Shown here: in pieces, positions 18,498 through 39,162 of the stretch | Position numbering within the stretch: position 1 is the stretch's first letter | Layout: each line of letters opens with the position of its first letter | DNA from: Terriglobia bacterium | GTDB taxonomy: Bacteria; Acidobacteriota; Terriglobia; Terriglobales; Acidobacteriaceae | Length of the DNA stretch: 64,000 nt | Assembly: GCA_020072585.1 (NCBI GenBank) | Contig: JAIQGL010000001.1 | Coordinates: 1 to 64,000 of the forward strand | Direction: 5' to 3' | The notes under the pieces: generated by a model | What the model saw: only the letters and a program-made list of their open reading frames with translations | Database searches by the model: none | What the model was told of the DNA's origin: nothing | Position numbers and translations under genes: made by a program

Positions 18498-18834
18498 ACC
18501 TTTCCACAAGTCTGGGCACCAAGCTGCAGCACGCAATTCGCCAACAGCACTAACCCTGGCCGCCACTCTCTTGTCTCAAGTCTGCTGTAGCCTACGTCAC
18601 ATAGTATCGCACTCAGTTTTAACCGATGTTTTAAGGGACCCACAGGGGAATAGGAGAGACAAGAAGAGGGCCGAACCCATTCCGTTTTGGTATTCGAAGC
18701 GGTCTCCGTTCGCCGAACAATGTGACAAATCGCCAAATCTACCTTGCGGACCTGACCAGTTTGAGTATATTGTTTTCGGCACACCCCCCTAGAACTCCAA
18801 AACCGCTTCCAGAGTGGCTGCTAACGGTAAACTG
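18498..18834. other. Intergenic region before the NB-ARC/WD40/TIR gene
   Basis: I see no gene here: short frames on both strands mirror each other and lack protein-like composition. The region presumably holds the promoter of the STAND gene, but I find no clear -35/-10 pair or ribosome site. The true start of that gene could lie anywhere between 18814 (GTG) and 18868 (ATG). Confidence 0.5.
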
Positions 18835-21800
18835 ATGTCTGCGCCAAGGGAAACGTCCTCTTCGCAGATGGCAGGGCTGTGGCGAAATTCGGAAAGGTCG
18901 GCGGTTTTCCCAGGTCCAATGCGGAAAAGCACAACTGGCTCAAGCACTGCTAACATTCATCAAAGAAAACCTGTGAGCGCAACTGGTCTACCACCCACTA
19001 CCGTCCCTCCCTTGCCTACAAACTTCTTGCCGAGGCCGGCTGCGCTGACTGCTTTAGTCGAAGCACTTCTTCAGGAGCGTGAGGACGGCCGTGGCACAAT
19101 TGCTCTGACAGCAGTCGCGGGGATGGGTGGCATTGGAAAGACGGTGCTGGCTCAATCTCTATGCCGCGAGCAGAGGATCAAAAATGCTTTTCCCGACGGT
19201 ATCGTGTGGCAGTCGATCGGAAGAGAATTAACCTTCAAGATGGACGCGCGGCTGCGTGCGGCGAGAATCGCTCTGGGCGACAACGCCGAATGCGGTCGCA
19301 GTGAGGTGGATTGCTACCGTTCAACATTGCTTGGAAAGGCGGCATTGGTCGTGGTGGACGATGTCTGGAAGATTGAGGATATCGAGCCGTGGCTGGCGGA
19401 ATCACCACGCTCGCGAGTGCTATTTACGACTCGCGATACATCGATCGCGGCTGGAGTCGGGACGGAGCCGCATTGGGTTGAGCTGCTGAGTGCGGCAGAG
19501 TCGACGGAAGCTTTGGCGCAATGGTCCGGTTGGGGTAACCGTAAACTACCCGTGGAAGCGGAAAGCATTATTAGCCAGTGTGGGCGTCTGCCATTAGCTT
19601 TGGCGATGGTGGGCGCAATGCTACGCGGCAAACCGGTGGGATTGTGGAAGCACACCCTGAACATTCTACGCAGTGCCGATCTGGCCAAGATCAAGGCACA
19701 GTTTCCCGGTTACCCGCATCCGAATCTGTTCATGGCAATCAAGGCCAGCGTAGATGCCTTGGAACCAGCAGACCGGGAGCGATACTACGCGTTGGCCGTT
19801 CTGATCGAGGAAATGTTCGCAGCCCGCGTGATCCAGCAAACGTTGTGGGGAATTGATGGGCGCGGTATGACCGCAGAGGAAGCAACTGAGACGGCGGAGA
19901 AATTCATTAACCTGTCATTGGCGCAACGAGATGCGGATGGCCAGAGTATCCGGTTACATGACTTGCAACTGGATTACGTTCGTGCTCAATTCACAGACCA
20001 AGAAGCACTAAATCTGATTCATGCAGCGATGCGGCTTTCATCGCAGGTGATTGCCAAAGCCCCTGAGCAGTTCGCCTCACAAATGGTGGGTCGACTGCTT
20101 ACCCATGAGAATAAAACTGGTGTCCAAGAGTTCACAATTGGCTTGAGAGGTCGAGCCCCGCTTCCGTGGCTCTTGCCGCGGTGGCCGAGTCTAGAAGCTC
20201 CCGGCACCGCTTGGATTCGTGACATCGAGGGTCATCCTGACTGTGTCAACCGAGTGGCAGTGAACTGGGACCGGAAGCTCGCGATCTCTGCTTCGAATGA
20301 CCACACCCTGAAGGTGTGGGATATAGAGAGCGGGCGGGAGCTGCGCACACTGAAGGGCCACGTTGACTCTGTACATTCCGTGGCAGTGAGCAAGGACGGC
20401 AGATGCGCGATCTCAGCTTCTGAGGACACCACGCTAAAGGTGTGGGATGTGGAGAGTGGACGGGAAGTGCGCACACTGAGAGGCCACAAAAACTCTGTCT
20501 GGGGGGTGGCGCTGAGCGCGGACGGGAAGTCGGCCATCTCCGCTTCGGATGACCACACGCTGAAGGTGTGGGATGTGGAAAACGGACACGAGTTGCGGAC
20601 TTTGAATGGCCACACTGATTGGGTGAATGGAGTGGCGATGAGCGACGACGGCAGATCCGCCGTTTCCGCTTCTGCTGATAAGACCCTGAAGGTGTGGGAT
20701 GTGAAGAGCGGGCGCGAACTGCACACCCTTGTGGGCCATTCCGGCTTGGTGCAAGCAGTAGCGGTCAGTCCGGACGGAATGCGTGCTGTCTCCGCTTCCC
20801 TTGATCATACTCTGAAGGTGTGGGATGTGGAGAAGGGGCGCGAGTTGTCGACTTTGAAGGGACATACTGGCTGGGTCAATGGCGTAGCGGTCAGCAAAAA
20901 CGCGAAGTATGCGATCTCAGCTTCGCATGACCACACACTGAAGGTGTGGGACATGGAGAGCGGAAAAGAACTGCGCACACTGAAGGGCCACAAACTTGCG
21001 GTTTGGGGAGTTGAGTTGAGTGGGGACGGGATGTTCGCCGTATCTGCTTCAGATGACCACACGCTGAAGGTGTGGAATGTAGAGAGCGGCCTGGAGGTAC
21101 GCACACTCGGAGCCCACACCACTTGGGTAAATGGAGTGGCAGCAAGCGAGTTTGGAAACGTTGCGGTCTCCGCTTCTCCTGACAATATTGTAGAGATATG
21201 GGAATTGCAGAGCGGGCGCAAGCTATGCAATCTGGTAGGTCACAACAGCTCCGTCAGAGGTGTGGCATTAAGCGGGGACGGCAGGCTCGCGGTCTCCGCG
21301 TCCGATGACCACACGCTGAAAGTCTGGGACATGAACAAAGGACAGGAATTACTTACCCTAAAGGGTCACACCGGCTGTGTCACAGGAGTGGCATTAAGCG
21401 GGGACGGCAGGCTCGCGGTCTCCGCGTCCGATGACCACACGCTGAAGGTGTGGAATGTGGAAAGCAGACAGGAGTTGTGGACGCTGGAGGGGCACACCCG
21501 GCCGGTATTGGGAGTGGCGGTAAGCAAGGATGGCAGGCGCGCTGTCTCAATCTCTTCTGACGATACCCTGAGGGTATGGGACGTGAAGAAAGGCCGGGAG
21601 TTACGCACACTGGAAGGCTACGGAACCCTGGCTCATGGAGTGGCAGTGAGCGCGGACGCGAAACGCGCTATTTTCGCTACCATTGTGAACAACTCCCTAA
21701 AGGTGTGGGACCTAGAAAGCGGGAAAGAGTTGCACAGCCTGGAAGGCCACAGCAACTGGATTAGAGGAGTTGCGGTGAGTGAGGACGGGAAGTACGCGGT

Positions 21801-22473
21801 CTCCGCTTCGGATGACCAGGCGGTGAAAGTATGGGATCTGGACACAGGGCAGGCGATAACCACGTTTACTTGTGAAGGTTCCGCACTTTGCTGCGCTTTT
21901 TGCAATTCAACGACTGTGGTCGCCGGGGACGCCGGCGGCCGTATTTACTTGCTAGAACTGCTTCTGGAGCGGAATGAATTCAGAAAAAGGAACGATACTG
22001 TGCTTCGAACGGAACAGGCGGTAGCAGAAAAAAAGAAACATGTATTCTTGTCCTATTGTCGTGACAACCAAGCGGAAGTTGCACAGTTGCGAGAGGATCT
22101 GATCGCCGCCGGTGAGATTGTTTGGTGGGATGGTCAGCTTCTTGTAGGGCAAGATTGGAAGTTGGAGATCCACAAGGCGATCAAGAGCGCCTACGCGATT
22201 GTGATCTGCCTCTCACAGCAATTTGAAGCTCGGATTCAGTCGGGGGCCTATCCTGAATTGAGAGATGCGATTGACGAATACCGGCAATGTGCTCCTGGCA
22301 GCATCTATCTGCTTCCGGTGCGTTTGTCTGCTTGTGAAATTCCGTCCCTCCGAATTGATGGTGCCACAATGCTGGACAGCCTCCACTATATCGACCTGTT
22401 TCCGGAGCATCATCGCACGACCCGCGTCCAGGAATTGGTCCATGCGATTCAGGCAGCCGCCCAGCACCCTTAA
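18835..22473 (+). CDS. NB-ARC / WD40 / TIR STAND protein, probable antiphage sensor-effector
   Basis: The 1212-residue protein has an N-terminal NB-ARC NTPase: P-loop GMGGIGKT at 96-103, Walker B LVVVDDVW with Asp175-Asp176, sensor VLFTTRD, and the GLPL-like box GRLPLALAMVGAML. Residues 466 to about 1055 hold 14 WD40 repeats (units of about 42 residues), probably two seven-blade propellers. The C-terminal TIR-like domain (1066 to about 1208) starts KKHVFLSYCRDN and has SGAYPELRDAI, where Glu1141 is a good candidate catalytic glutamate for NAD+ cleavage. Bacterial STAND proteins sense phage products and TIR domains deplete NAD+; the trigger here is unknown. Start choice is uncertain (GTG 18814, ATG 18868 also possible). 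Confidence 0.88.
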   Translation: MSAPRETSSSQMAGLWRNSERSAVFPGPMRKSTTGSSTANIHQRKPVSATGLPPTTVPPLPTNFLPRPAALTALVEALLQEREDGRGTIALTAVAGMGGIGKTVLAQSLCREQRIKNAFPDGIVWQSIGRELTFKMDARLRAARIALGDNAECGRSEVDCYRSTLLGKAALVVVDDVWKIEDIEPWLAESPRSRVLFTTRDTSIAAGVGTEPHWVELLSAAESTEALAQWSGWGNRKLPVEAESIISQCGRLPLALAMVGAMLRGKPVGLWKHTLNILRSADLAKIKAQFPGYPHPNLFMAIKASVDALEPADRERYYALAVLIEEMFAARVIQQTLWGIDGRGMTAEEATETAEKFINLSLAQRDADGQSIRLHDLQLDYVRAQFTDQEALNLIHAAMRLSSQVIAKAPEQFASQMVGRLLTHENKTGVQEFTIGLRGRAPLPWLLPRWPSLEAPGTAWIRDIEGHPDCVNRVAVNWDRKLAISASNDHTLKVWDIESGRELRTLKGHVDSVHSVAVSKDGRCAISASEDTTLKVWDVESGREVRTLRGHKNSVWGVALSADGKSAISASDDHTLKVWDVENGHELRTLNGHTDWVNGVAMSDDGRSAVSASADKTLKVWDVKSGRELHTLVGHSGLVQAVAVSPDGMRAVSASLDHTLKVWDVEKGRELSTLKGHTGWVNGVAVSKNAKYAISASHDHTLKVWDMESGKELRTLKGHKLAVWGVELSGDGMFAVSASDDHTLKVWNVESGLEVRTLGAHTTWVNGVAASEFGNVAVSASPDNIVEIWELQSGRKLCNLVGHNSSVRGVALSGDGRLAVSASDDHTLKVWDMNKGQELLTLKGHTGCVTGVALSGDGRLAVSASDDHTLKVWNVESRQELWTLEGHTRPVLGVAVSKDGRRAVSISSDDTLRVWDVKKGRELRTLEGYGTLAHGVAVSADAKRAIFATIVNNSLKVWDLESGKELHSLEGHSNWIRGVAVSEDGKYAVSASDDQAVKVWDLDTGQAITTFTCEGSALCCAFCNSTTVVAGDAGGRIYLLELLLERNEFRKRNDTVLRTEQAVAEKKKHVFLSYCRDNQAEVAQLREDLIAAGEIVWWDGQLLVGQDWKLEIHKAIKSAYAIVICLSQQFEARIQSGAYPELRDAIDEYRQCAPGSIYLLPVRLSACEIPSLRIDGATMLDSLHYIDLFPEHHRTTRVQELVHAIQAAAQHP
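21262..21446 (+). repeat. Identical 59-bp DNA repeats within WD40 coding region
   Basis: Bases 21262-21320 and 21388-21446 are identical, in frame and one repeat unit (126 bp) apart. Other WD40 units are also very similar in DNA. Such identity shows recent unit duplication or gene conversion inside the propeller-coding part, as is seen in fast-changing WD40 recognition proteins. Confidence 0.85.
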
Positions 22474-22619: not shown

Positions 22620-23516
22620 CTATCGAAACCTCGCGGCATAGTCGGCCTTCAAACCTTCCAAAACACGATGCACCTTGATCGCATCAGCAGTGTTCGCCAT
22701 TCCCCGAGCATCCTCAGGGTGTTCCAATAACTCGCGATAGACATGTTTTTGACAAGCCTGCCAAATCCCGTGTCTTTGAGAGGAACGTAATGATCCTTTC
22801 GGATATTCTGGACAATTTGCACCCCATTGAGCCGATATCAGATCATACACGTTCCTTGGCAGTGCACCGCCGTCTTCCACAACATCAAGCGAAAATTGCT
22901 CGTGTAGCGCCTCTAAATTTATATCGATGATTACACCAATTGCACCACAAGACATCTCGATTGTGGCTTTGCTCAAGGTGCGAGTGCCACTCCTAAGAGA
23001 AACGCCATCAACACACAGGCCAGCCGCAAGCACAAGGTCAATGATGTGTGAACCGACCGCATAGAGGCACGTGCCACCCTCTGACAGGTGCTGATACCAA
23101 AGATCGCCCTGTATCTGTTGCAGCCACGCCGCAGACCGATACAGAATTCGAATACGGCCACACAGAGATGATATAAGCTTTTTCATCTCAACAAGAACAT
23201 TGTGCTTGCGCAATTGATAGTTAGCAAACACTGGCTGTTTCCAACGACAAACTAAATCATGAATTCTTTCTGCCGCTGCCAGATTGTGACCCATCGGTTT
23301 TTCGATCAATACGGCTCTTGATCTTGCATGCAGTCGGATTAACTCTTCCTCATGAGCTGACGGCGGTGAACCAATCACCAGAAGATCAGACTTTGCCGGA
23401 GATGAAGGAGTGTCGTCCCTATCGACATAACTGAAGTCAATTCCACCCAATCGTGAAAGAACAGGTTCATGAAGCCGTGTGCAAACGCCCCGGCCTCTTA
23501 AAAGAACAGTCTTCAT
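22620..23516 (-). CDS. Gfo/Idh/MocA-type oxidoreductase, short variant
   Basis: From ATG 23516 the product has 298 residues; a TTG further upstream is a weaker start. Family marks are VLLRGRGVCTRLHEPVL (Rossmann-like loop with atypical glycines), VLIEKPMGHN (the conserved EKP) and GTCLYAVGSHIIDL. These enzymes use NAD(P) to oxidise or reduce sugars, inositols or related compounds. It is shorter than the usual 330-380 residues and its first glycine loop is altered. It starts 2 bp after the radical SAM gene ends, so the pair is translationally coupled and probably shares a pathway. Confidence 0.72.
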   Translation of the reverse strand: MKTVLLRGRGVCTRLHEPVLSRLGGIDFSYVDRDDTPSSPAKSDLLVIGSPPSAHEEELIRLHARSRAVLIEKPMGHNLAAAERIHDLVCRWKQPVFANYQLRKHNVLVEMKKLISSLCGRIRILYRSAAWLQQIQGDLWYQHLSEGGTCLYAVGSHIIDLVLAAGLCVDGVSLRSGTRTLSKATIEMSCGAIGVIIDINLEALHEQFSLDVVEDGGALPRNVYDLISAQWGANCPEYPKGSLRSSQRHGIWQACQKHVYRELLEHPEDARGMANTADAIKVHRVLEGLKADYAARFR

Positions 23517-23518
23517 AT

Positions 23519-24397
23519 TCAAGGGCAAATCGAAATCTTATCCTCGAACATGTCAACCTTTGAGTGTTTGATACATCCCTCTTCAAAACTCCAGTGTGCT
23601 TGCAAATAACTGAAGGCTGACATGCTTCGAAGAAAATACGGAAGGCCCTGCGCATGGCAGGCAGATCGAACAAATTCAACCTCTTTCGAAAGGTAACATT
23701 TGTCCCAAGCGGATGGTTGACTTATGAAAGTCATTGGCGCGGAAGTCACAATGTATCCTTCAAACCCCTTCCACCCTAACCGCATCGGCAACTGGCGGCT
23801 CTTATCAACCAGGAAAACCTCGCCCAGCACAGCAGCAACACCATGAGGGAGGCTCTTCACTAAACTTGTTGTCTCCGCTTCGGGAACCAAGCTGAAAGAA
23901 AAGGTCGGCCGTAGAGCTACAATGCACGGTATGCCAACTGTCACAAAATCCGCTACCAGCTTCAATCGCTCCGACGACGGTGGTACCCGTTGCGCATTTT
24001 CAATCCGGTTAGGATAAGAGAATGTCACTAACGAAACACACGGAATAAACAACTGCCTACGATGGGAACATTCAGCAGCCAGGGCAAGGATTTTTTCATA
24101 AACCGCCTTCGACGGTACAAGCCTTGTGGTAAATGTCACTGGCACTTTTGGATAAAGTCGTGCCAGTTGTTCCATGAGAGAAACGCTTTCTTCGGGACGC
24201 AGCAGCGGGTCGGTGTCGCCTGAGACACATATACATCTCAATTCTTTAAATTGTGCAACCGTCTCCACCACTTCCGCGATTTGCAGGTCCGGCTGGTGCC
24301 TGAAGTCTTTTGAGGTTATGTAACAATGTTTACAGCCAAGAGAGCAAACGCCCCCCAGTGAAATAGTGATCTTGCCGAACTCGTCAACTGTAAACAC
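23519..24397 (-). CDS. Radical SAM enzyme in a three-gene cassette
   Basis: The 292-residue protein starts at a GTG. Close to its N-terminus is GGVCSLGCKHCYI with Cys18, Cys22 and Cys25, the CxxxCxxC cluster site of radical SAM enzymes. VSGDTDPLLRPEESV after it fits the SAM-binding glycine-rich region. The remainder forms a short partial TIM barrel without extra Fe-S cysteine motifs or a SPASM domain. Substrate is unknown. It is not viperin-like in its cluster context. It lies 13 bp after the M24-like gene and 2 bp before the oxidoreductase, suggesting joint modification of a small molecule, peptide or nucleotide. Confidence 0.78.
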   Translation of the reverse strand: MFTVDEFGKITISLGGVCSLGCKHCYITSKDFRHQPDLQIAEVVETVAQFKELRCICVSGDTDPLLRPEESVSLMEQLARLYPKVPVTFTTRLVPSKAVYEKILALAAECSHRRQLFIPCVSLVTFSYPNRIENAQRVPPSSERLKLVADFVTVGIPCIVALRPTFSFSLVPEAETTSLVKSLPHGVAAVLGEVFLVDKSRQLPMRLGWKGFEGYIVTSAPMTFISQPSAWDKCYLSKEVEFVRSACHAQGLPYFLRSMSAFSYLQAHWSFEEGCIKHSKVDMFEDKISICP

Positions 24398-24410
24398 GCA
24401 CTTCGTCTAA

Positions 24411-25250
24411 CTAGGATGAAAGCAAATCGTATGCTCCGAGCAATTTCTCAACATCGTCTTGCAATTCAATTGAACCGTTATTCTTTCTTGCGAGATAGTG
24501 AAACGTTACTTGTGGAAGCTCAGAATGATTTACACATCTCAACTGTGGCTCGATGGTAAACTGCAAGTCTTCTGCAATGTGCCACTCTGAATTACCATTT
24601 AAAAATAGCCGGCCCCGCCGGATTGAGTTTCTCTGATCCTCGGTCAGATGGTCTGACAGTTTAGGTGGATTAACTCTGGGAAAGGTGTGCCCAAGATCCA
24701 AAGGCGTCGTGTCAGAAATGCTGATCACTGTGTTCTGAAGTCGGTATTGTTCAAAGATAGCTTGGGAGTTGGTGAAAATGGTAATCGATGTTTGCTCTGG
24801 CTCTATGCTCTCCAACAACTTGCGTACGGCACGATGTGCCGTTAGGAAGTGTTGTCGAATACCGAGGTTTCGCCCGAAATAGAGCGTAACGGCAAAATCA
24901 CCTGGCACGCCATCAAGTTTTGATACCGGCGAGCAATACACATACAACAGCCCATCATTCCATCTAATCAATCTGTCCGAAGGCCAATATTCAGGGGTCC
25001 GTAGCGTAGAAAAAGAAATCCGACTGCAATCATTTGCGGTTGCTGACAAAACAGCAGTGCCTCTAGGGGGCGGATCATACCAGCCGTCCGCAATGACGTA
25101 TGAATCCTTGGTCAGTCGATCCATCCATAAGTCGCAAAACATTTTTTCGGTAATGAATTCATTTCCGAAGCACTCCTTGAGCGTTGCATTAAAGGTCTCA
25201 ATGGCCTTGAGCCGCGTTTTATTGAACGGTGTTGTAACGAAAGCAGCCAT
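24411..25250 (-). CDS. Uncharacterised protein with possible M24 (pita-bread) fold
   Basis: From ATG 25250 the product has 279 residues. I do not recognise it firmly. Several stretches recall M24 metallopeptidase-fold proteins: GDFAVTLYFGRNLG (beta hairpin), AHRAVRKLLESIEP, DLGHTFPRV, and especially LQFTIEPQLR, close to the FTIEP motif of methionine and Xaa-Pro aminopeptidases. The metal-binding Asp/His set looks incomplete, so it may be a non-catalytic relative that binds a substrate or carrier. It is the first gene of the minus-strand cassette with the radical SAM and Gfo/Idh proteins. DNA is visibly more A/T-rich than the transfer genes. Confidence 0.5.
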   Translation of the reverse strand: MAAFVTTPFNKTRLKAIETFNATLKECFGNEFITEKMFCDLWMDRLTKDSYVIADGWYDPPPRGTAVLSATANDCSRISFSTLRTPEYWPSDRLIRWNDGLLYVYCSPVSKLDGVPGDFAVTLYFGRNLGIRQHFLTAHRAVRKLLESIEPEQTSITIFTNSQAIFEQYRLQNTVISISDTTPLDLGHTFPRVNPPKLSDHLTEDQRNSIRRGRLFLNGNSEWHIAEDLQFTIEPQLRCVNHSELPQVTFHYLARKNNGSIELQDDVEKLLGAYDLLSS

Positions 25251-25971
25251 AGTACTCAAAAAGTGTTGAAAAGTTGAATAAGATTTTGGTTTAGCGGTGC
25301 CATGTGGTCATGTTCTCGGTAGAATGGCTCAAGATCATACGATATCAAGACTGCTCCCCGTTGCCTTTCTCAGATCTTGGGACGTTGTAGTGTAACATGT
25401 GAATTTGCTTCGTTTTTCACATTATTTAACGCAGACCCTACAGGGGAAACCCAATTTCACATGACTTCGAATGAAGTGGACGACATGGCCTCAACAGATT
25501 GTTCAGTACCTCAGCAACCATCACGCTCTTTATTTTGACCTGGGAGAAAGCGCTTCACGGATAACATATGGACAGGCCAAAAAACGAGGCCATTATATTC
25601 AATGGACGATTAGTCACTCGCCAGGGGCCGAGGCCTGCCCGAAGGCCTGGTAGGCAAAGATAATTCTCCCGTGCCCTATATGTCCTAAAGTTCAAGTGAT
25701 TTCAAATGCAGTAACGCGAACAACGGGCCTCACAAACCGTTGAAAGTCACAAGCAATTGTATCTCTGGAGGGTTGGCTTCCCCGTAAAAAGTCTTACCCA
25801 CTCCAAGTGTTTATTTTAAACGGTCGTACTTCCATGACTTGATTCTTCTGGGTCCCTACCCACAAACCACATCCTCTCCTCACTAAGTGCATCCGCGATC
25901 CGGCCAGTAAAAAATCCGGCTCGCTCAAAACCCCACTTCTAGGTAACAGCAGAGCTGATCTTCTGCCCTTT
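25251..25971. other. Non-coding region between cassette and ardC leader
   Basis: No gene is supported in these 720 bases. A 60-codon frame at 25471-25653 has no recognisable pattern. The left part should contain the promoter of the minus-strand cassette. The rest could include transfer-origin or control sites, as it directly precedes the nested inverted repeats of the ardC-like gene, but I see no specific nick-site motif. Confidence 0.45.
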
Positions 25972-28467: not shown

Positions 28468-29301
28468 ATGTTAGGCAGCGCAAACCAAAACCATGAAGTT
28501 CATGCTCAGCAGCACATTCGCCGGATGCGAGGCGGCTCACAATCTCAGCTTGTGCGCGCTTCCGATGGCCATTACTACGTCACCAAGCTTCAGGGCAACC
28601 CACAACATACGCGGGTTCTGGCCAATGAGTTTATCGCCAGCAGACTCGGGCGATATCTAGGTCTGCCGATGCCTGAAGTGGCAGTAATCTATGTCTCAGA
28701 TTGGCTGATCGAGAACACCCCGGAACTGCGCTTTGACGTGGCTGGACTGGCAACGCCTTGCCGCAGTGGCCTCCAGTTTGGTTCGCGGTACGTGGCCGAT
28801 CCTGAGACGGATATGATCTTCGATTATCTTCCCGAATCGCTCATGCTCGAAAAGACCCGCAATTTGCATGACCTTGCGCGCGTGCTCGTGCTCGACAAGT
28901 GGGCCGGTAACGCCGATGGCCGTCAAGTGGTATTCACCAAACCAGATACGGCGCGGAAGTACAGCGCGAGCTTCATCGACCAGGGCTATTGCTTTAACTG
29001 CTCCGAGTGGAATTTTCCCGACTCTCCGCTTAGAGGAGTCTTTGCCCGCAATTCGGTCTATCAGCAGGTGACCGGATGGGACTCGTTCGAGCCTGTCCTC
29101 AGCCGCGCCGAGCAGATGGACACCGCTGAACTTTGGCAACTCACCGAAGGGCTGCCGGAAGAATGGTGGTCCCGCTACGGCTCCGCTTCTGACCTGGCTC
29201 GCTTGATCGAGACCCTGCATCAGCGCCGTTCATCTATTCGCGACCTCATCCTGGCTTTCCGCAACTCCAGCCGCAGCCCATTTCCTAACTGGAAGGGATA
29301 G
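28468..29301 (+). CDS. HipA-like kinase-fold protein without HipB
   Basis: The 277-residue protein has a kinase-like layout: a candidate ATP-lysine Lys40 in YYVTKLQGN, the catalytic-loop pattern VLDKWAGNADGRQ with Asp143 and Asn148, and a metal-binding Asp171 in FIDQGYCF. This matches the short HipA-like kinase family (shorter than the 440-residue HipA). No HipB-type antitoxin lies nearby. HipA enzymes phosphorylate proteins and can act as toxins; the short orphan forms are of unknown role. Start is supported by ACAGGAG. It is between ardC-like and ssb genes, so a role at establishment or in host control is possible. Confidence 0.72.
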   Translation: MLGSANQNHEVHAQQHIRRMRGGSQSQLVRASDGHYYVTKLQGNPQHTRVLANEFIASRLGRYLGLPMPEVAVIYVSDWLIENTPELRFDVAGLATPCRSGLQFGSRYVADPETDMIFDYLPESLMLEKTRNLHDLARVLVLDKWAGNADGRQVVFTKPDTARKYSASFIDQGYCFNCSEWNFPDSPLRGVFARNSVYQQVTGWDSFEPVLSRAEQMDTAELWQLTEGLPEEWWSRYGSASDLARLIETLHQRRSSIRDLILAFRNSSRSPFPNWKG

Positions 29302-30303: not shown

Positions 30304-31953
30304 TCAGAATTCCATGCCATGACTAATGGGGCGTCCGTTCAATTGGCACTTAATTTTCAACTCAAAAGGCCACGGACGGACAATACGTCCAAGAGCTCTA
30401 TTCGGCTTGTCTTTTATAGTGTGCTCCAAATTGGCTTTAACGAGGTCGAAAGATTGGGGGTTATGATCGATGTGCCGTGGCCCAATATAATTTATTGACA
30501 TGTTGATCTCCGGTCGGCCGTTGCGATGCGAAATCTCTAAGTGCTCAAGTTGGGCTCGATCAGGATCATCCGAACTATATAGCGTCCTATCACCTCGTTC
30601 TCGCTCCCACGTCTGAATTTGATCACAGAGCAGCAATAAACAAATAAGCGGCTCCGAGTCCCACGAAAGAAGCTCACTTACACCTTTCTGCAGTTCTCCC
30701 ACAAGGTTGTGCGCCGCCATCGCCCTCGCCGCTTCATTCGCCAAAAACTGCTGTTCTGGCGATCCGACATGCTGCTTAAGATGCAGGGCCGCCATTACTC
30801 CGTGATCCGGTTTCTTCTTCTCGACGCTTTTTTGCCACAGCGGCTTCAAAAGTCGGGCCATTGGCTCCTCGTATTCCGAGAGCAACTGGTTTCCTTTCTT
30901 GACAAGTCTATGAGGAATCCAGTCCCCTGCCGTCGGTATAGGCGACACCAAAGCACTAAAATCCCGCAGGAGGCCATCGGCGATATCACGAACCGACATA
31001 TATTTCTGTACGCATCCGGCTGCATCATGGAATATGGAAGCATAGTACCAAGCATCGCTCAATGATTCCAATGGCTTAATCTTCCTTGCGGCCTTGGCCT
31101 GGGTGAGACGTCGCTGTACTTCGACATCGTTCTTATTTTTCTGTATGGCGACCTCATGCGCTTTTATACGACTAGACGTCAACTGGCTCCACGCCCGCTC
31201 AAACCAAGGGGAAATATCAGGATGGTGAATCAGATAATACCCAAGCCAAAAAACATTTATTACGTGGCGTGCATGTCCGCGAGTGTATTCAGAAACAGCG
31301 CGGCTGAGTGCTTCCCATTTGAGCATTGCTTTCCACATGGTCTCCGCTGGGTCATCCCATACCTTAAGATCATTCGCGATGTTTTGGATTGCTGACCCCG
31401 CACGTTGGATCTGGTCGTATTCTGTCATGCCTGCGCTATATTGTTCGACCATGTCGGTGACAAACTTGTGCCAACTTGCACCCCGCTTCATTTCACGAAT
31501 TAGGCGCTGTATTAGGCTATCTGGTCTCAAGCGAGACAACTCTATTGCAAGTTGTGACAAACGCCACGTAACATAGGCGGCAGAAGCAGAGTTTTTGTCC
31601 CAGATGTCATATAATTCTGCGCGGCGTTTGAGACAAGATTCGAGCGCTAGAGGTCCGCGACCAGTGAAAGCTATTATCGGAATGCGCTGTTCTGGTGAGT
31701 GGTCACCTGCCCATGCCCTCACTGCATTGATGATGTCTCCAAGCCTGTCGACTCCTTTTGGCATATTCCAATAGACATCTGCGAGGACGAGATCGGTACT
31801 TCGGCTGAGAACCTCTTTCAATCCATCGGGATTTGAGGCCAGCTTTAAATCTAGCGTAACGCCGTCTCGGAGATCGTTATGTTCACGAACAGCACCTGCA
31901 ATCTTGTTCCGCTCGATTTCTTCATCATCAACATAAATAATAGTAAATGTCAT
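30304..31953 (-). CDS. Receiver-HD domain protein, partner of large ATPase/PRTase protein
   Basis: From ATG 31953 the product has 549 residues. The first 135 form a response-regulator receiver: acidic pair at Asp9-Asp10, phospho-acceptor Asp59 (LVLADVYW), Thr97 (AFTG) and Lys120 (WDKN). The rest contains an HD-phosphohydrolase-type set: His227/His230 (GHARHVIN), His309-Asp310 (FHDAA), His385 (DHGVMAAL), His415 (AAHN) and Asp444 (LLCDQ). The order H-HD-H-H-D suggests a two-metal hydrolase acting on nucleotides or cyclic nucleotides. The start lies 4 bp after the stop of the large upstream gene, so they are translated together. No DNA-binding domain is seen. Function is inferred only from motifs. 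Confidence 0.72.
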   Translation of the reverse strand: MTFTIIYVDDEEIERNKIAGAVREHNDLRDGVTLDLKLASNPDGLKEVLSRSTDLVLADVYWNMPKGVDRLGDIINAVRAWAGDHSPEQRIPIIAFTGRGPLALESCLKRRAELYDIWDKNSASAAYVTWRLSQLAIELSRLRPDSLIQRLIREMKRGASWHKFVTDMVEQYSAGMTEYDQIQRAGSAIQNIANDLKVWDDPAETMWKAMLKWEALSRAVSEYTRGHARHVINVFWLGYYLIHHPDISPWFERAWSQLTSSRIKAHEVAIQKNKNDVEVQRRLTQAKAARKIKPLESLSDAWYYASIFHDAAGCVQKYMSVRDIADGLLRDFSALVSPIPTAGDWIPHRLVKKGNQLLSEYEEPMARLLKPLWQKSVEKKKPDHGVMAALHLKQHVGSPEQQFLANEAARAMAAHNLVGELQKGVSELLSWDSEPLICLLLLCDQIQTWERERGDRTLYSSDDPDRAQLEHLEISHRNGRPEINMSINYIGPRHIDHNPQSFDLVKANLEHTIKDKPNRALGRIVRPWPFELKIKCQLNGRPISHGMEF

Positions 31954-31957
31954 CAAT

Positions 31958-34900
31958 TTATACCTTCCCCGAAAAACCGATTGGTACCTGTACATCGCAC
32001 GCTGCTTGATAACCGCGCTCTTGTTCTATTGCAGAAGGCAGAGTCCACTTATTGATCACTGCTCCAAATTGTGCCAGAAGTATGCGGGTAGCCTCCCAAG
32101 ATCTACCGTGGATAACATTGGCTTGGGACGCAGACGGACTGTCATAATCTGTAAGGAGCCTGAAAATAGCGCACTCTCCTCCATTTCGCGATCGTGCCTT
32201 TTTCACAATAATAGAGCTCTTATGTGCGCCGGTGTATTTGATGTGTGGGTCAATGGTCCAATTCGCTAGTGCCAAACACAGCCTTTCGACGTGTGTAAGG
32301 ACTCGAGATGTTTTAATTTCCTCGTCAGGAGAAAATTCGAATATCAAGCTGCTCTCCATACCCTTTTCGCTGCAGTGTTTCTCCATGTCCTGTACGCGCT
32401 CAATGAAATATGAGCGTAATTCTTCTATCTCTTGGTGAAAGACTTTATTGAAGTTTTCACAGAACGGGCGTGTTGGATCAAGATCATCGGATAAATGCCT
32501 TAATTCTGCTGGTGCGACATCCCACGCTTCCGTTGGGAGCGACTCAGCTAGCCATTGCAAAGTGACTGTAGCATGTTTGATGATGTCACCATCAAGCAGA
32601 TCCAGAACCGCATACGGCGTGAGATCGTTAAGAGCTGCTAAAAATGTCTGCAGTCCACTTTCCAGTAGTGAGCGATACAACGGGTTACTTGGGTTTTTAA
32701 TTACATCGCGAAGGTGTCGCCGAAGGAGACGGTGTTCACTCAGCCCTCTAGTTTCGGCAGTTTCGCCGCGAAAAAGGGATTCGGCAATTACATAAAGAGG
32801 CCACTTGGCGTCTATCAGCTGAGAAGGGCGGCAATGACGAACATATAGCTGCTTCACAAATCCAAGGTTATCTGAGCCCACCTCTTCTGCGCCGAAGACC
32901 AGTGCATCGAGAATCGCTTCAACAGCTCTGTTCTTTTCGCTCAGCTTGTCTGCACTATCTCTTTCGCGTTTTCCACTGGCAAGAAACAGATCGATTGCCG
33001 TATTCAACCGGGTTAGTTTGGTCACACGTTGAGGATCGAGTACATGTTGGTCGCGAGAATGTGTCGCATCAAGTTCAGTAAGAATGTTGACAGCCGCGAG
33101 CACGAAGTTGAGCACACGGCGATCATCGCGTACCTGGGCAAGGGACTGAAACAGTGTTTCTATCAAACCCGTGCTATGATCGAGCTCGAATTTTATGCAC
33201 TGGAGGAAGGCCTCTCTAGCTCCGGTTGCAACGAGGCGTGGCCAATTACGCACTGACCACTCATAAACTGCGAAACGATATCGAGAAAGCTCGTGTTCAG
33301 AATTATTATTGGAATGTCCAAAGGAAATTTGGATTTGTTGGAAGATGTCATTTAACGGGTATGAGCGGTACATCAATTCATAGAACAAGCCGATAGCTGT
33401 ATCCACATAATGGGCGATATATTGCGGCGCTATTTCGACCGGCAATGAATAGTCGGGTAAAATCTGGATAGGAATCCTTAATTTGTTGGAACTCCTGACA
33501 CGGAAAGAAAGGTTGTCAACCGCTATCGGCCTTAACTGATGCTTCCTGGCCTTCGCCCAGCGCAAGGATTCAGCCGAAAGAATGCTATCCGAGGTTGTCA
33601 ACAGGCCCTGGATACGTTCTAGCTCGTGGCACGCTGGGCACGCCTCATCGTCATATACGGACAGGCCCATGCAATGAATATATTCATCAAAAACAAAATG
33701 AATAGGTAAATCATCACCTATCAAGTTGAGTGCATGCCAATGTCGATCCTGAGCGAAACTGAGCCCATTGAAGGCTGCAAAATAGCGAATCCACTGCACT
33801 GGGCTGCCATTCGCAAAGTCAACCCCGTGCCGATTGAAGAGATCCTTGAGGTGGCGCTCTATGGTGTCCAGAATTGTCAGCGCGGTTCTTCCGGTTGCAA
33901 TTGCTTCGTCCAAAATCAAGATTCGCAACTGACGGTCGACTGGGAGTTTCGTATTCCTGGACTCTCTTACTGCATACTCGAGTTGTCTAAGAAAAGACAG
34001 GGGCAGCCGATATGCGGGGCCCCGCCCCAAGAACAGAGTGGCATCGAGTATCCACATTGGCTGCCGCCGGCCTCGTTGGGCGAGAATATTCTCAACCTTT
34101 GGCCAGAGATAATGAACCTGGCTGTGGAGAGGCATGAGGACGGCAGTGACATCGCCCTCCAGGCTTGATCCTTTCTGAGTCTCCCAGGGTGCCACCCTCC
34201 TATCTGGAACACCTTCGCAAACATCTGCGATCCAAAGCGCTAGCTCAGATCCCAACGGACCGCGGAGAGCTTCTTGCATATTGATTGCCAGAGGATAGTG
34301 CCGTGTCCCGTAAACATAATGTCCAGCACTAAGGAGACAGGAGTCATGTTGTTCAAACACCCGAGAGCCAGAGAGCATTAACTTATGTTGATCAGTATTC
34401 GGACGTTCACCGCGGAGAGATCGATAGGAGAATGGCCTCAAAGTGCGAGGTTCAATCCAATAGGATCTTGCATATTCATCCTTGTTCGAAGGCGGTTTGC
34501 AAGATTTTGGCCTGGGCATCGCTATCATAGCGTGCCGGGGAACTCCGGTGACACGCTCAGTATGCCAATCAAGGAGACTCGTAGCACTGGTTTCCGATTG
34601 TTGGTCCTTTAAATGAACTAAGGCGATCAGACACAAGACATTGGCGCCCTGATGCTTTAACAGCTTGATCAACTGGTTTGACATCACTCCATGACTCAGT
34701 ACATCTTGTACGACCACAACTCCACCTGCGCCTGAAATCGAAGGAGGGGTCTGATCAGGATGTAGCATTACGTAGTACCCAAGATCAACGATTGTCGGAC
34801 GCGAACAACCTTCCTCGATAGGCCACCAACGATGCATCGCCGAGGCGAGTAAGGTTGCTGGTGCCGTACCACAGGCCAATGTGCCGACATCTCGCAAGGC

Positions 34901-37141
34901 CTTATTCTGTGACTCTAGCCATTTTCGTAGTCGATAAATCAAGGCCTGAGCTGCTTCATCAGCATAGCGGCCTCGCGACAATATTCTAGAACATTCAAAA
35001 AACTGCTCAACCCATTCGTCTCCTTCCTGCCAAGGCAAGTTAAATCTGGCGTTATCCTCCTCTTGCCCAAGCGCAAGTTGCAGTTTACGGGTCGACATCT
35101 CAGGCTTTGTTTCTTGTCTATGTGATAAATCGCCACTGGACTTACCATGCCAAGCGAGGCTCAGGTCTGCTATTTTATCGAAGTGGCGCGTCAGTGCTCG
35201 GGTGGCTTGTTTTGCTAAGCTTTCTTCATCCCAGATACAGCGCCACCCTCGTAGGGTATGTTCAAATAGCTGCGTAGTGTTATTCAAAATGGCGCGGATG
35301 AGTGACTCTGGTACGTTGTGTGTCTTTAGGATTTCCTCAATTGTCCTGGGTTCATCAATTAAAGATAGAAGTGCCTCCTCGCAATCATCTGTCGGAATCC
35401 CGAAGAGGTGTCTTTCGCCATTCTGATCGAGCGCCAATACTGTGCAATGAATGCTCCGATATGTTTCCAGATAACGCGTCTCAGAGGCCTCACCATATGT
35501 TCTCCCAGTTTTGCTAGGCGCACTCACGGTATCGTCCATCTGTAAAAAGCTAGCCGCACCTCCCTGCTCGAGCATATTTGCGGCCTTCGCCAGTTTGGGT
35601 TCGATCTCGACCAGTAACACCGGGCGCGTTTGCAGGAGGTTTTGAAGCAAATGCAAAAGCGTTTCAAATTGGGCAGGCTCCCAATGGAGTCCGCTGAAAT
35701 CGAGGACCAAAGATTCCCCGCTAGGTCGTTCCTTCATAAGCTTCTTGCAGAGTCTCTCACAAGCGCGTCTAAATAGAAGCTGCTCCTCCCCGCCTGCGCA
35801 CGTATTGGGAAAGTCCAAAAGTTCCAACAAAGGAACCAGATGGCCGCGCACATGTTGTTCATCAATACGGAACGAACGAGGGAGAGTTGCCATGAAAACA
35901 GATTGCCGTTTGATAAGTTTGTGTGTCTCTATTATTGGCACGAGCGGTAGCACGAGTTGCAGTTGAGCTCCTCTTCTCAAGGTGGACGCTGCTGTCGACT
36001 GAGGTCGATATCCAAGGTGATTAGGAAACCTCTGAAAGCGATCTCCTTGGCCCACATACGTGACTTGTGCTCCACCAGAGCGAAGCGTAAGAGTTCCACC
36101 ATATTTTGCGATGAGCAAAAGAATTCTTCCCAATGCATGTCGTTCTGTTGCCCAAGACTCGTTTGCATTTTTGCACGTTCCAAATTCGTCAAAAGCAAAG
36201 CATAACAAGTCAGTTGAGTCCACTTTTGCTTTTTCTCTTTGATTGGTGTGCCGGAGGTAGGCATCGCGTAGCGTCTCGATAAAACCTAAACCATAATCAG
36301 CAATGCATAGCTCTAGAAATCCGTTGGACATTTTCGGAAATAGAGCTTGTGTTGTCGGCGCAAAGCTTCTCGAACACCAAGGTTGCACCTCTCCCTTAGT
36401 GTTATAAGGATGCACAACTCGTCCGCAAAGGAAACCGGCCTGCCCTGCATGTTCCCAGATGTTCACCGCCAGCTCATGACAGAAAACACGCCATACCTCC
36501 TCAAATTCAAACAACGGCGATTTTGCAAACCGTTCTGACATCTGCCCTTTCCAGTTAAGTATCTGATGATCGTCAAGGAAAAGCTTGCAATCATCTTTCG
36601 ACTCTATTCGGGTAAGGCCTAATATAACCGTGGCGGCATCACTTGGCTCTTTTGCGGTGTACCAGCTTTTGAATTGAGCCCATTTGGGTCCTAAAAAGGA
36701 GAACAACACCCTTCCTCGGTGTGACTTCCTAAGGACATCGAGCGTCCCTAAAGAATCGAGGAAGCCAGCGAACTTGAAGACTCGCTCCGAATATTCAAAG
36801 TCGAGCCGACGGTGGCCTTTGCTGAAACCGCGCTTCCGAAAATCAAGGCATTCCTCGGGTGTAAGAAGCTTTAAACGAGGGTGTGAGACGAAATCGATTC
36901 CAACCTCCCGAGTAGACGGATTTGCTAGAAGCGTCTCAAGCATACTGACGAATGTTACCCATTCAAAAAGGTTCGTGAACGCAATATCCGTCATTTCAAT
37001 TGTCAATAATTCGGGTGGCACAGCCAGATAGGGCTCGATCTTGTCAGCTAGGCCTTGCAGCCATTTTGGACCGGCATATCCTAAGGAGTTGTCTCTCAGG
37101 TCGTCTAAATTATCAGGCTTACTCGCGATCCTAACATTCAT
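31958..37141 (-). CDS. Giant GHKL ATPase / STAS-like / double phosphoribosyltransferase-like protein
   Basis: From ATG 37141 the product has 1727 residues (a TTG at 37165 would add 8). Around 205-400 it resembles a GHKL ATPase: N-box ELAVNIWEHA, then IADYGLGF (DxGxG), then RHALGRILLLIAKYGG. Around 475-522 it reads LVLDFSGLHWEPAQFETL, like a STAS domain. Two PRTase-like segments follow: VVVVQDVLSHGVMSNQLI near 808-825 and ILILDEAIATGRTALTI near 1074-1090. A CPACHEL pair of cysteines lies beyond. The last 500 residues are helical and unassigned. The combination suggests ATP-dependent sensing that controls nucleotide-type chemistry. It is coupled to the receiver-HD gene. I know no named system with this layout. 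Confidence 0.68.
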   Translation of the reverse strand: MNVRIASKPDNLDDLRDNSLGYAGPKWLQGLADKIEPYLAVPPELLTIEMTDIAFTNLFEWVTFVSMLETLLANPSTREVGIDFVSHPRLKLLTPEECLDFRKRGFSKGHRRLDFEYSERVFKFAGFLDSLGTLDVLRKSHRGRVLFSFLGPKWAQFKSWYTAKEPSDAATVILGLTRIESKDDCKLFLDDHQILNWKGQMSERFAKSPLFEFEEVWRVFCHELAVNIWEHAGQAGFLCGRVVHPYNTKGEVQPWCSRSFAPTTQALFPKMSNGFLELCIADYGLGFIETLRDAYLRHTNQREKAKVDSTDLLCFAFDEFGTCKNANESWATERHALGRILLLIAKYGGTLTLRSGGAQVTYVGQGDRFQRFPNHLGYRPQSTAASTLRRGAQLQLVLPLVPIIETHKLIKRQSVFMATLPRSFRIDEQHVRGHLVPLLELLDFPNTCAGGEEQLLFRRACERLCKKLMKERPSGESLVLDFSGLHWEPAQFETLLHLLQNLLQTRPVLLVEIEPKLAKAANMLEQGGAASFLQMDDTVSAPSKTGRTYGEASETRYLETYRSIHCTVLALDQNGERHLFGIPTDDCEEALLSLIDEPRTIEEILKTHNVPESLIRAILNNTTQLFEHTLRGWRCIWDEESLAKQATRALTRHFDKIADLSLAWHGKSSGDLSHRQETKPEMSTRKLQLALGQEEDNARFNLPWQEGDEWVEQFFECSRILSRGRYADEAAQALIYRLRKWLESQNKALRDVGTLACGTAPATLLASAMHRWWPIEEGCSRPTIVDLGYYVMLHPDQTPPSISGAGGVVVVQDVLSHGVMSNQLIKLLKHQGANVLCLIALVHLKDQQSETSATSLLDWHTERVTGVPRHAMIAMPRPKSCKPPSNKDEYARSYWIEPRTLRPFSYRSLRGERPNTDQHKLMLSGSRVFEQHDSCLLSAGHYVYGTRHYPLAINMQEALRGPLGSELALWIADVCEGVPDRRVAPWETQKGSSLEGDVTAVLMPLHSQVHYLWPKVENILAQRGRRQPMWILDATLFLGRGPAYRLPLSFLRQLEYAVRESRNTKLPVDRQLRILILDEAIATGRTALTILDTIERHLKDLFNRHGVDFANGSPVQWIRYFAAFNGLSFAQDRHWHALNLIGDDLPIHFVFDEYIHCMGLSVYDDEACPACHELERIQGLLTTSDSILSAESLRWAKARKHQLRPIAVDNLSFRVRSSNKLRIPIQILPDYSLPVEIAPQYIAHYVDTAIGLFYELMYRSYPLNDIFQQIQISFGHSNNNSEHELSRYRFAVYEWSVRNWPRLVATGAREAFLQCIKFELDHSTGLIETLFQSLAQVRDDRRVLNFVLAAVNILTELDATHSRDQHVLDPQRVTKLTRLNTAIDLFLASGKRERDSADKLSEKNRAVEAILDALVFGAEEVGSDNLGFVKQLYVRHCRPSQLIDAKWPLYVIAESLFRGETAETRGLSEHRLLRRHLRDVIKNPSNPLYRSLLESGLQTFLAALNDLTPYAVLDLLDGDIIKHATVTLQWLAESLPTEAWDVAPAELRHLSDDLDPTRPFCENFNKVFHQEIEELRSYFIERVQDMEKHCSEKGMESSLIFEFSPDEEIKTSRVLTHVERLCLALANWTIDPHIKYTGAHKSSIIVKKARSRNGGECAIFRLLTDYDSPSASQANVIHGRSWEATRILLAQFGAVINKWTLPSAIEQERGYQAACDVQVPIGFSGKV

Positions 37142-37708
37142 GAAAAAGAGGGTTTTGGCGCTCAACTATACACTGCGCGTGATGTGCTGTAAATGACAAA
37201 CATACAAAATGGCTTTGTCGCGGCTTGACCAGATTTTGAAGGGGCGCAAAATTGTGCCGTACATATGAATAGAAATGCAGTAAGAAATTCAGGCAAGAGA
37301 CTAATTTATTAGAAGACTCTAAGAGAAATGTTGTCATTCTTGTTTGAAACAGAACTCCACTAGCGCAGTACTGTTATGGCCCCTAAACAAACTGGAAAGA
37401 TACATTCAAGATCGGCAAGAACAAGCCGCAGAGACCACTGACAAATGGATCGCGGCAGAATTCCGCTCACAGCACTACGGCCATTTTCCGGTGGGCGCTC
37501 ACGCTGTCCATAGCAGAGATCGCCATCATCCGGAAGATGAATATCCCCGTGATTTGGTCCAGTTGATTTGACTGTTCGGGGCGATGCACGAGCTAGTGCT
37601 GTTCGACTGACAATACAGTCGACTTACAGTGTGATGCTACTAAGGTGTATTAAAGAACTACTGCACTCTCACCAGCGGTGCTCATGCAAGCGAGTGGAGT
37701 ACAAAGTT
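37142..37708. other. Intergenic region between large operon and integrase gene
   Basis: No gene is well supported in these 567 bases. A 75-codon + frame at 37344-37571 lacks a ribosome site and recognisable pattern. The left part should contain the promoter of the minus-strand two-gene operon, and the A/T content is raised around 37250-37340, but I find no clear -35/-10 pair. An excisionase gene might be expected near the integrase; none is recognised. Confidence 0.5.
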
Positions 37709-38986
37709 CTATTGACCTGCATGAGCGGGTATTACGTGCGCTATTGCAGTTGCAAAAGCCGCCAGTTCGCTTCCATTGACTCGTGCCGCCACATCTTTAT
37801 TGCGCACGGCTTTCAGATATACCATCGTCGAAGCCAGATCATTATGACCGAGCCACAGTTGCAGGGTACGAATATCGCAGACATGGTCCTGCAAATTCCG
37901 GGTCGCGAATGTATGACGGAATTTATGCAAAAACCAGTTCGAGCAGTACTCACCGTCCGAGCATTTGTTGCCGTGCCGTGAAGCGCAGCGACCACAGTTC
38001 ATGCCAGCTTTATATGCGATCCGCTTCAGCTTCCATTCGTGCTTTTTGTCCGGCTCGCCTGTCGCAGTTGGGAAGACAAGATTATTCGGATTCTTGTCAC
38101 CCTGCCGCTCTTTGTGGGCCTTCAGCTCAACAACCAGTGATTCAGGAATCGGAATCGCCCGCTCTTCTTTGTTTTTAGGCTTGAATCCCCATTGCGGTTT
38201 AGCAGTCACGCGCACGGAATGATTGCGGGAATCGATGTCTCGCCATGTGCAGTATCGTACCTCTTTGTCCCGCATTCCAGTCAGGAGATAAAACAGAAAC
38301 AGCGTTTTCTCTTCTGGCTGGCAAGCAGCGAAAAACGTCGTCAGCTCTTCCGGCTCATAGATCGAGCGAATGGGATCCACATATTTCGGCCAGTCGCGTT
38401 TGTGCAGCAATCCCGCTATGCCATTCAACTTGAGGAGCTGAGAGACGATCACAGCCCGGTTGTATGCGGTGCGTGGCCCGCAGCCGAGCTCATACAGCTT
38501 GCGAATGAAGCCCAGGAGATCCTCCCGCGTGACTTCCTGAATATAGGTCTTGCGGCAGGTCTGAGCGAATAATTCCAGGCAATGTTTGTAGGCCGTGTAC
38601 GTTTTCGGCTCTCGCTGGGGAGGCTCAATCTCTTTAAGATACGTGGTCACGGCATCGCGAACCCGAGTGCGCTCGCCTTCTTCGCTTTCTGCGATTTCGA
38701 TCCCGGCCTTGCCGGCATCGAGTTCAATGGCCTTGCGGCGAGCCTGCTCCAGCACTTCGCTTGCGTCCTTTACGCTTTGCCGGCGCCGGACGCCGTTCTC
38801 GTACCATTCGATGTAATAAGTGCCTTCGGCATGCCGCTCGGGGTTGCCGTCCACCAAGACCCAGTCCTGCTTTAGCTTGTTGTTCTGCGTTTGGGCAGGC
38901 GCAAAGCGCCATTTATCGGCCACTTTGACGTACTTGAGGATATTGACGCGGCAGGAATAACCTTTATGGTTTTGCGGCTTGGGCAC
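37709..38986 (-). CDS. int: Tyrosine integrase with four-cysteine insert
   Basis: The 425-residue protein starts at a GTG preceded by ACAGGAG. It has an arm-type and core-binding N-terminus (SAM-like helices about 108-195) and a catalytic domain. The residues are Arg239 (TGMRDKEVRY), His354 and Arg357 (HKFRHTFAT), His381 (WLGHND) and Tyr390 (MVYLKA). Between the Lys hairpin and the HxxR motif lies an insert with Cys331, Cys334, Cys342 and Cys348, looking like a zinc-binding knuckle. The gene lies 82 bp from the 3' end of tRNA-Ser, the expected place of an ICE integrase. It should recombine attP with the tRNA 3' end. Confidence 0.92.
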   Translation of the reverse strand: MPKPQNHKGYSCRVNILKYVKVADKWRFAPAQTQNNKLKQDWVLVDGNPERHAEGTYYIEWYENGVRRRQSVKDASEVLEQARRKAIELDAGKAGIEIAESEEGERTRVRDAVTTYLKEIEPPQREPKTYTAYKHCLELFAQTCRKTYIQEVTREDLLGFIRKLYELGCGPRTAYNRAVIVSQLLKLNGIAGLLHKRDWPKYVDPIRSIYEPEELTTFFAACQPEEKTLFLFYLLTGMRDKEVRYCTWRDIDSRNHSVRVTAKPQWGFKPKNKEERAIPIPESLVVELKAHKERQGDKNPNNLVFPTATGEPDKKHEWKLKRIAYKAGMNCGRCASRHGNKCSDGEYCSNWFLHKFRHTFATRNLQDHVCDIRTLQLWLGHNDLASTMVYLKAVRNKDVAARVNGSELAAFATAIAHVIPAHAGQ

Positions 38987-39068: not shown

Positions 39069-39162
39069 TGGCGGAGAGGGGGGGATTCGAACCCCCGATA
39101 GAGGTGTTAGCCCCTATAACGGTTTAGCAAACCGCCGCCTTCAGCCACTCGGCCACCTCTCC
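39069..39162 (-). tRNA. tRNA-Ser(GCU), ICE integration target
   Basis: On the minus strand the gene begins GGAGAGGTGGCCGAG and ends with the pairing CCTCTCC, discriminator G and an encoded CCA. The anticodon loop CGGTTTGCTAAACCG gives anticodon GCT. A long variable arm follows, as in serine tRNAs, and the T-loop reads GGTTCGAATCC. The 3' end points at the integrase gene, so the crossover site is probably within its last 20-45 bases. No second copy of that sequence was found in the window. Confidence 0.96.

Follow-up and report, generated by a model that had tools for sequence, protein, structure and literature searches.

Here, we report a pair of adjacent minus-strand genes, gene A and gene B, in the window (the whole stretch of DNA analyzed, 64,000 nucleotides; Table 1). 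We tentatively propose, with a confidence that stays somewhat short of even, that their products form an immune-like system in the two-component style, carried by an integrative and probably conjugative element; A would sense infection, and the receiver of B would switch its HD enzyme.

In the proposed mechanism, A would bind ATP via its N-terminal GHKL domain, and its PRTase regions would probably bind PRPP or a nucleotide. Infection or a competing element might alter these ligands or bind A, and the triggered A would act on the receiver of B by either phosphorylation of D59 or docking. B would then be released as a metal-dependent HD enzyme, be it a phosphohydrolase, a phosphodiesterase or a nuclease. 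By destroying nucleotides, a nucleotide-type messenger or nucleic acid, the active enzyme would stop growth or phage replication. Neither HisKA/DHp nor another histidine phosphoacceptor domain was recognized in A in Pfam, so phosphotransfer from A to B is a step that we infer.

Table 1. Features of the gene pair and of the adjoining integration site in the window
Feature	Coordinates	Strand	Remarks
Gene A	31958..37141	-	1727 aa from ATG; probable sensor with one GHKL-like and two PRTase-like regions
GHKL-like region of A	35906..36568	-	about residues 200-420; N box N235, D290-x-G-x-G
PRTase-like region 1 of A	34286..35098	-	residues 690-960; PRPP-loop-like VVVVQDVLSHG, Q replaces first acid
PRTase-like region 2 of A	33521..34318	-	residues 950-1215; ILILDEAIATGRT, both PRPP-loop acids present, CPxC downstream
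Conserved C-terminal region of A	31961..32644	-	residues 1508-1735; 29% identity to gene A of L004
Gene B	30304..31953	-	549 aa; REC-HD protein; 38% identical relative in L004
REC region of B	31534..31953	-	D9/D10, D59, T97, K120; profile tests 1/500, 0/100
HD domain of B	30571..31302	-	R225-x-H227-xx-H230, H309-D310, D383-H384-G385, H415-N416, C443-D444-xx-Q-x-W449 (11-sequence alignment)
Tyrosine integrase of element	37709..38986	-	PF00589 E=2e-18
tRNA-Ser(gct), likely attachment site	39069..39162	-	adjoins integrase

Gene pair and its single close relative

The pair is real. A two-gene operon with 4-bp spacing had been described in the first-pass annotation of this region, and the same layout was recovered here: both ORFs are located on the minus strand, with gene A first and a gap of four bases (31957..31954) between its stop and the start of gene B. 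ATG 37141 is the likelier start of gene A, and the listed ORF reaches to TTG 37165; residue numbers of A refer to this ORF (P0001) and are counted from TTG 37165. Gene B starts at ATG 31953, after the TAA stop of gene A, and a longer ORF start at 31995 was set aside. The motifs quoted in the annotation were found in P0001 at residues 235 (NIWEHA), 290 (DYGLGF), 817 (VVVQDVLSHG) and 1085 (LDEAIATGRT).

Searches for relatives revealed that the family is very rare. With A as query, a single match, the window's own genome, was obtained among 297 genomes of the phylum and again among 230 genomes of the class (overlapping the phylum sample); B alone matched only its own genome among 299 genomes of the class. 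The search of genome contigs for the pair yielded nothing in a first scan and 22 pattern matches in a second, of which one locus (L004) was confirmed. This locus lies on JAHJLI010000265.1, a contig of the MAG 'Proteobacteria bacterium isolate Old_saline.mb.128', and contains the C-terminal 229 aa of an A homolog, then four bases, the same gap as in the window, and then a full-length B homolog. Because the contig ends inside gene A of L004, the comparison with the A of the window covers the C-terminus only (29% identity over 232 columns); the B proteins are identical in 210 of 555 columns (38%). No further part of A was found in the genome of L004. Apart from the window copy, A matched only this C-terminus in all searches. 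Whether homologs stay paired had been raised as a check on the operon, and the pair is indeed kept in L004, the sole relative close enough to tell.

No true match was obtained in plasmids (searched with A, B and the B of L004), in phages (searched with A and the B of L004), in viral contigs or in PDB sequences; a two-sequence B profile had a single PDB match, at E=0.39. A Methylovirgula plasmid match to A (E=4) was rejected as a chance hit to an F0F1 ATP synthase alpha gene.

In L004, the B homolog is followed by the type I restriction-modification (RM) genes hsdR, hsdS and hsdM. The Septu genes PtuA/PtuB were observed between hsdS and hsdM (L004:7347-9768, plus strand), inside the type I restriction operon.

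Domain signals of proteins A and B

Scans of the whole protein A against Pfam gave PF00156 at residues 1073-1104 (E=0.039, below cut-off), and those against NCBIfam gave ten models near residues 810-875, all of them phosphoribosyltransferases and all below their cut-offs, the best being pyrE_Therm at residues 816-857 (E=4e-5). As these scans yielded little, four dedicated profiles were built and run on 12 fragments of A, B and their L004 homologs with 500 shuffles per fragment. The PRTase profile comprised 10 of the 11 PRTase matches from the host genome, the HATPase_c_2 profile seven of its 15 HATPase_c_2 matches, and the kinase-type profile three histidine-kinase-type HATPases. The receiver profile was made of four receivers or receiver-like stretches of relatives, including two rows from the HATPase genes of the relatives L011 and L024, the former receiver-like by eye only and the latter below the Pfam cut-off (E=0.0024).

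The PRTase profile scored 16.4 bits on residues 690-960 of A and 7.5 bits on residues 950-1215, with none of 500 shuffles as good in either case, and the remaining ten fragments were unremarkable. Members of the PRTase superfamily have a PRPP-binding loop with two acids and TG. Region 2 displays the full pattern (DE...ATGRT, ILILDEAIATGRT) and region 1 a partial one (QD, SHG), which makes catalysis by region 1 doubtful. Both regions resemble type I phosphoribosyltransferases in their PRPP-loop-like motifs and profile scores; they differ in that no full-domain match was found, that region 1 lacks the first loop acid and that the two stand in tandem in a sensor-like protein.

The GHKL signal in A is weak. 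On residues 200-420, the HATPase_c_2 profile scored 8.2 bits with 0/500 shuffles as good (runner-up fragment, 37/500) and aligned via the N box and G1 box. The histidine-kinase-type HATPase profile lent no support on the same residues (89/500 shuffles as good), and no support was obtained from Pfam at E up to 10 or from hhalign. Of the GHKL domain and two PRTase-like loops that had been assigned to A by eye, the two PRTase-like regions were supported by profile scores, and the GHKL assignment was supported by the HATPase_c_2 profile and not by the kinase profile, hhalign or Pfam. A STAS domain with partner switching, also proposed at that stage, was dropped for now, since residues 431-580 matched no Pfam model at E up to 10.

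A degenerate second GHKL domain at the C-terminus of A, proposed from the N1635/D1673 spacing, was likewise dropped as unsupported: hhalign lent no support when the C-termini were compared with kinase HATPases, the best weak alignment (P=0.035) falling on the N box, the HATPase_c_2 profile was equaled by 112/500 shuffles, and profile-profile comparisons were equaled by 40/100 and 53/100 column shuffles.

The receiver and the H-HD-H-H-D set that had been read in B were both borne out. All receiver residues are present, namely the two N-terminal acids D9 and D10 together with D59, T97 and K120, and D10, D59 and K120 are identical in the B of L004. On residues 1-140 of B, the receiver profile scored 4.0 bits, a value reached by 1/500 shuffles; 24/500 shuffles were as good for the receiver of the L004 protein and, unexpectedly, 19/500 for residues 950-1215 of A. 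When a two-sequence profile of both B receivers was compared with the receiver profile, no column shuffle out of 100 was as good. The HD set is formed by H227/H230, H309-D310, H384, H415 and D444. The set has two additional histidines between HD and D, which fit a site with two or three metals, as in a phosphodiesterase or nuclease, better than a mononuclear dNTPase.

No family match was found for B in Pfam and NCBIfam at E up to 1. B shares the H-HD-H-H-D metal set with HD metal phosphohydrolases such as HD-GYP, PDE-like and Cas3 HD proteins, and the group of B differs from them in motifs of its own (R-x-H-xx-H, DHG, HN, CDxxQxW). A canonical histidine kinase with a REC-HD output is matched by B in that a receiver with D59, T97 and K120 is fused to HD, and by L011 and L024 in that a HATPase gene precedes a REC-HD gene; A departs from such a kinase by having no HisKA/DHp match and two PRTase-like regions.

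Structure models were too poor for use. AlphaFold gave a pLDDT of 36.1 for residues 9-1208 of A (no alignment), which does not allow a fold reading, and 47.1 for B (two-sequence alignment). Foldseek with the B model returned nothing below E 0.001 (best 6oec_A at 0.014, with RcsB chains lower), which was treated as no evidence given the quality of the model.

Distant HD proteins, their neighborhoods and competing readings

The two-sequence profile of B matched 5/395 genomes in the phylum of L004 (G563 included), 3/242 in its class (G563 included) and 4/297 in the phylum of the window (own genome included). Besides the window and L004 proteins, nine distinct distant HD proteins were obtained; each was cut by eye to its HD part and aligned with the two B proteins. 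In all 11 sequences, H227, H230, H309, D310, D383, H415 and D444 are conserved, as are R225 and W449, and H384 is conserved in ten. The R-x-H-xx-H motif precedes the matched stretches of all nine distant proteins (earliest start at profile position 261), so that its presence does not depend on how they were found.

Of the nine distant proteins, six (all except L020, L022 and L023) were scanned with Pfam and four with NCBIfam. Above the Pfam cut-off, only the receivers of L010/L011 and L024 were detected; below it, there were STAND/AAA matches in L021 (best E=3.5e-5) and an HD match in L009 (E=0.073). The nearest NCBIfam HD model for any relative was the cyanamide-hydratase HD family against L010, which is the B protein of L011 (E=0.0046, far below cut-off). 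In these scans, no curated Pfam or NCBIfam model exceeded its cut-off over the HD part, and hence a profile of this HD group could uncover more such systems.

An upstream HATPase gene or gene A was found in four of the ten relatives (L004, L011, L014 and L024). A HATPase gene and a REC-HD gene overlap by four bases in L011; in L024, a GAF-GAF-HATPase gene is followed 6 bp on by the REC-HD gene, and GmrSD is located about 3 kb upstream of this pair. In L014, 494 bp separate the HATPase gene from the HD gene downstream. No recognizable GHKL gene was found upstream in L013 and L021, and an upstream partner would be beyond view in L012, L020, L022 and L023, where the contig stops inside the gene or a short way upstream. 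The two HATPase plus REC-HD operons (L024:5641-9492 and L011:8149-10922, plus strand) possibly represent a kinase-driven version of the system, and an ORF further upstream in L011 reads like the GAF part of the L024 protein (by reading only).

In L021 (7185-10610, minus strand), the HD is joined to a STAND-like NTPase, and the gene adjoins type I RM and AbiEii genes. Its other neighbor encodes a 1358-aa protein that is NTPase-like by reading and has no Pfam or PADLOC match. Placement in defense islands, which had been named as a further check on the homologs, was confirmed in part: recognized defense neighbors were present in three of ten relatives (L004, L021 and L024), a raw count in which the ten are L004 plus the nine distant proteins and the defense-library scan covered those three loci.

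Several of these observations support the immune reading: L004 retains the pair with its 4-bp gap, next to type I RM genes and PtuA/PtuB, the HD metal site is kept across the 11 aligned proteins, the REC-HD genes of L011 and L024 follow HATPase genes and the HD gene of L014 lies downstream of one, the HD-STAND gene of L021 is located beside type I RM and AbiEii, GmrSD is near the operon of L024, and an NB-ARC-WD40 gene is present on the element of the window. Against it speak the rarity of the family, the small share of relatives with recognized defense neighbors, the missing histidine phosphoacceptor match of A in Pfam, the weak GHKL signal and the unreliable structure models.

It is possible, though somewhat unlikely in our judgment, that A and B are instead an ordinary non-defensive signaling pair carried as cargo. 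With A as a sensor of the energy or PRPP state, B would then turn over a nucleotide second messenger and thereby tune the physiology of the host or of the element, e.g., its transfer. The intact receiver acids of B agree with this, as do the two REC-HD relatives that follow HATPase genes, one of which (in L024) has the GAF domains typical of metabolic sensing; L011 has, about 2.4 kb away, a gene whose product looks like a coupling protein (by reading only), and the element that carries the pair has conjugation genes. However, such a role accounts less well for three of ten relatives being among restriction or other defense genes and for one of them being joined to a STAND-like NTPase.

Another alternative is that the HD domain is a nuclease with Cas3-like H-HD-H-H-D chemistry, in which case B would cut DNA or RNA and A would be the recognition module. 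Binuclear HD nucleases share the full set found in B, and restriction genes adjoin the loci of L004 and L021. However, no helicase or nucleic-acid-binding domain was recognized in A or B with Pfam and NCBIfam, and a receiver is better suited to small-molecule signaling, which makes this an improbable explanation.

Returning to the immune reading, a bolder form of it would be a new class of immune signaling, in which a giant GHKL-PRTase-PRTase protein stands in for the histidine kinase; it would read, or itself make, a nucleotide signal derived from PRPP and would license an unnamed family of defense-associated HD effectors that is also used in kinase-driven and STAND-fused forms elsewhere. We regard this bolder form as unlikely. 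If the immune reading is true, receiver-switched HD enzymes would be an immune effector family common to kinase-, STAND- and GHKL-PRTase-type sensors, and infection might be signaled through PRPP or nucleotide-salvage chemistry.

Detocs comprises three genes, encoding a kinase, a receiver and a receiver-effector, with a PNP effector. The gene pair resembles it in that a gene for a GHKL-type sensor adjoins one for a receiver-effector and in the proposed nucleotide-directed effector. On the other hand, the pair has two genes instead of three, with an integrase gene and an opposite SSB gene flanking them, HD in place of the PNP effector, and as sensor a giant GHKL-PRTase-PRTase protein with no recognized kinase phosphoacceptor domain. 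Neither A nor B had a match in PADLOC-DB 2.0.0 at E up to 1, in a release not confirmed to include Detocs models. Given the two genes, the other effector, the other sensor and the lack of a PADLOC match, the pair is not a member of Detocs. By analogy, it looks like a rare, undescribed relative of two-component-style immune systems that may work like receiver-effector defense systems such as Detocs, which is termed a defensive two-component system (glossary of PMC11249213). Among the open-access papers searched, none was recognizable by its title or the start of its abstract as describing the pair; two figure legends of DefensePredictor (PMC13092281) name PRTase, HATPase and REC, and an overlap with A and B is possible.

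Mobile element around the pair

The pair is located between the oppositely oriented SSB gene of the element and its integrase gene. The element genes include CagX/TrbG, TrbI, TrbL, a coupling protein, a topoisomerase, an ArdC-like protein, SSB and the integrase; no relaxase was identified on the element part within the window. The window begins at base 1 of its contig, and the left end of the element is thus out of sight. The conjugation genes, together with an integrase at tRNA-Ser, support the earlier description of the pair as ICE-borne, and the element is integrative and probably conjugative.

The third-position G+C is 0.477 for gene A and 0.495 for gene B, compared with 0.617, 0.627 and 0.591 for the integrase, topoisomerase and TrbI genes of the element. 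The lower values hint at a separate origin of the pair, but one of two genes sampled to the right of the tRNA gene is low as well (0.485, the other being 0.693).

The presence of ArdC-like and SSB genes on the same element and the position of the pair next to the integrase might also fit an anti-defense or polyvalent protein pair that shields the conjugative element on entry into a new host. This appears highly improbable, considering that L004 lies within a restriction locus and that L021, in a second such locus, combines its HD with a STAND-like NTPase.

Additional genes were observed in the window. A 1219-aa protein with NB-ARC (E=8.1e-28) and WD40 repeats, encoded on the same element at 18814-22473 (plus strand), is an NLR-like candidate immune protein. 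A HipA-like kinase gene (PF20613, E=8.5e-13) is present at 28468-29301 (plus strand), and a three-gene cluster of an oxidoreductase, a radical SAM protein and a third, unassigned protein at 22620-25259 (minus strand) is possibly a small biosynthetic operon. Finally, near copies of the tRNA-Ser 3' end by the integrase were found at G000:C3:92095-92122 and C45:32439-32466 (one and two mismatches, respectively), which may be other tRNAs or attachment sites.
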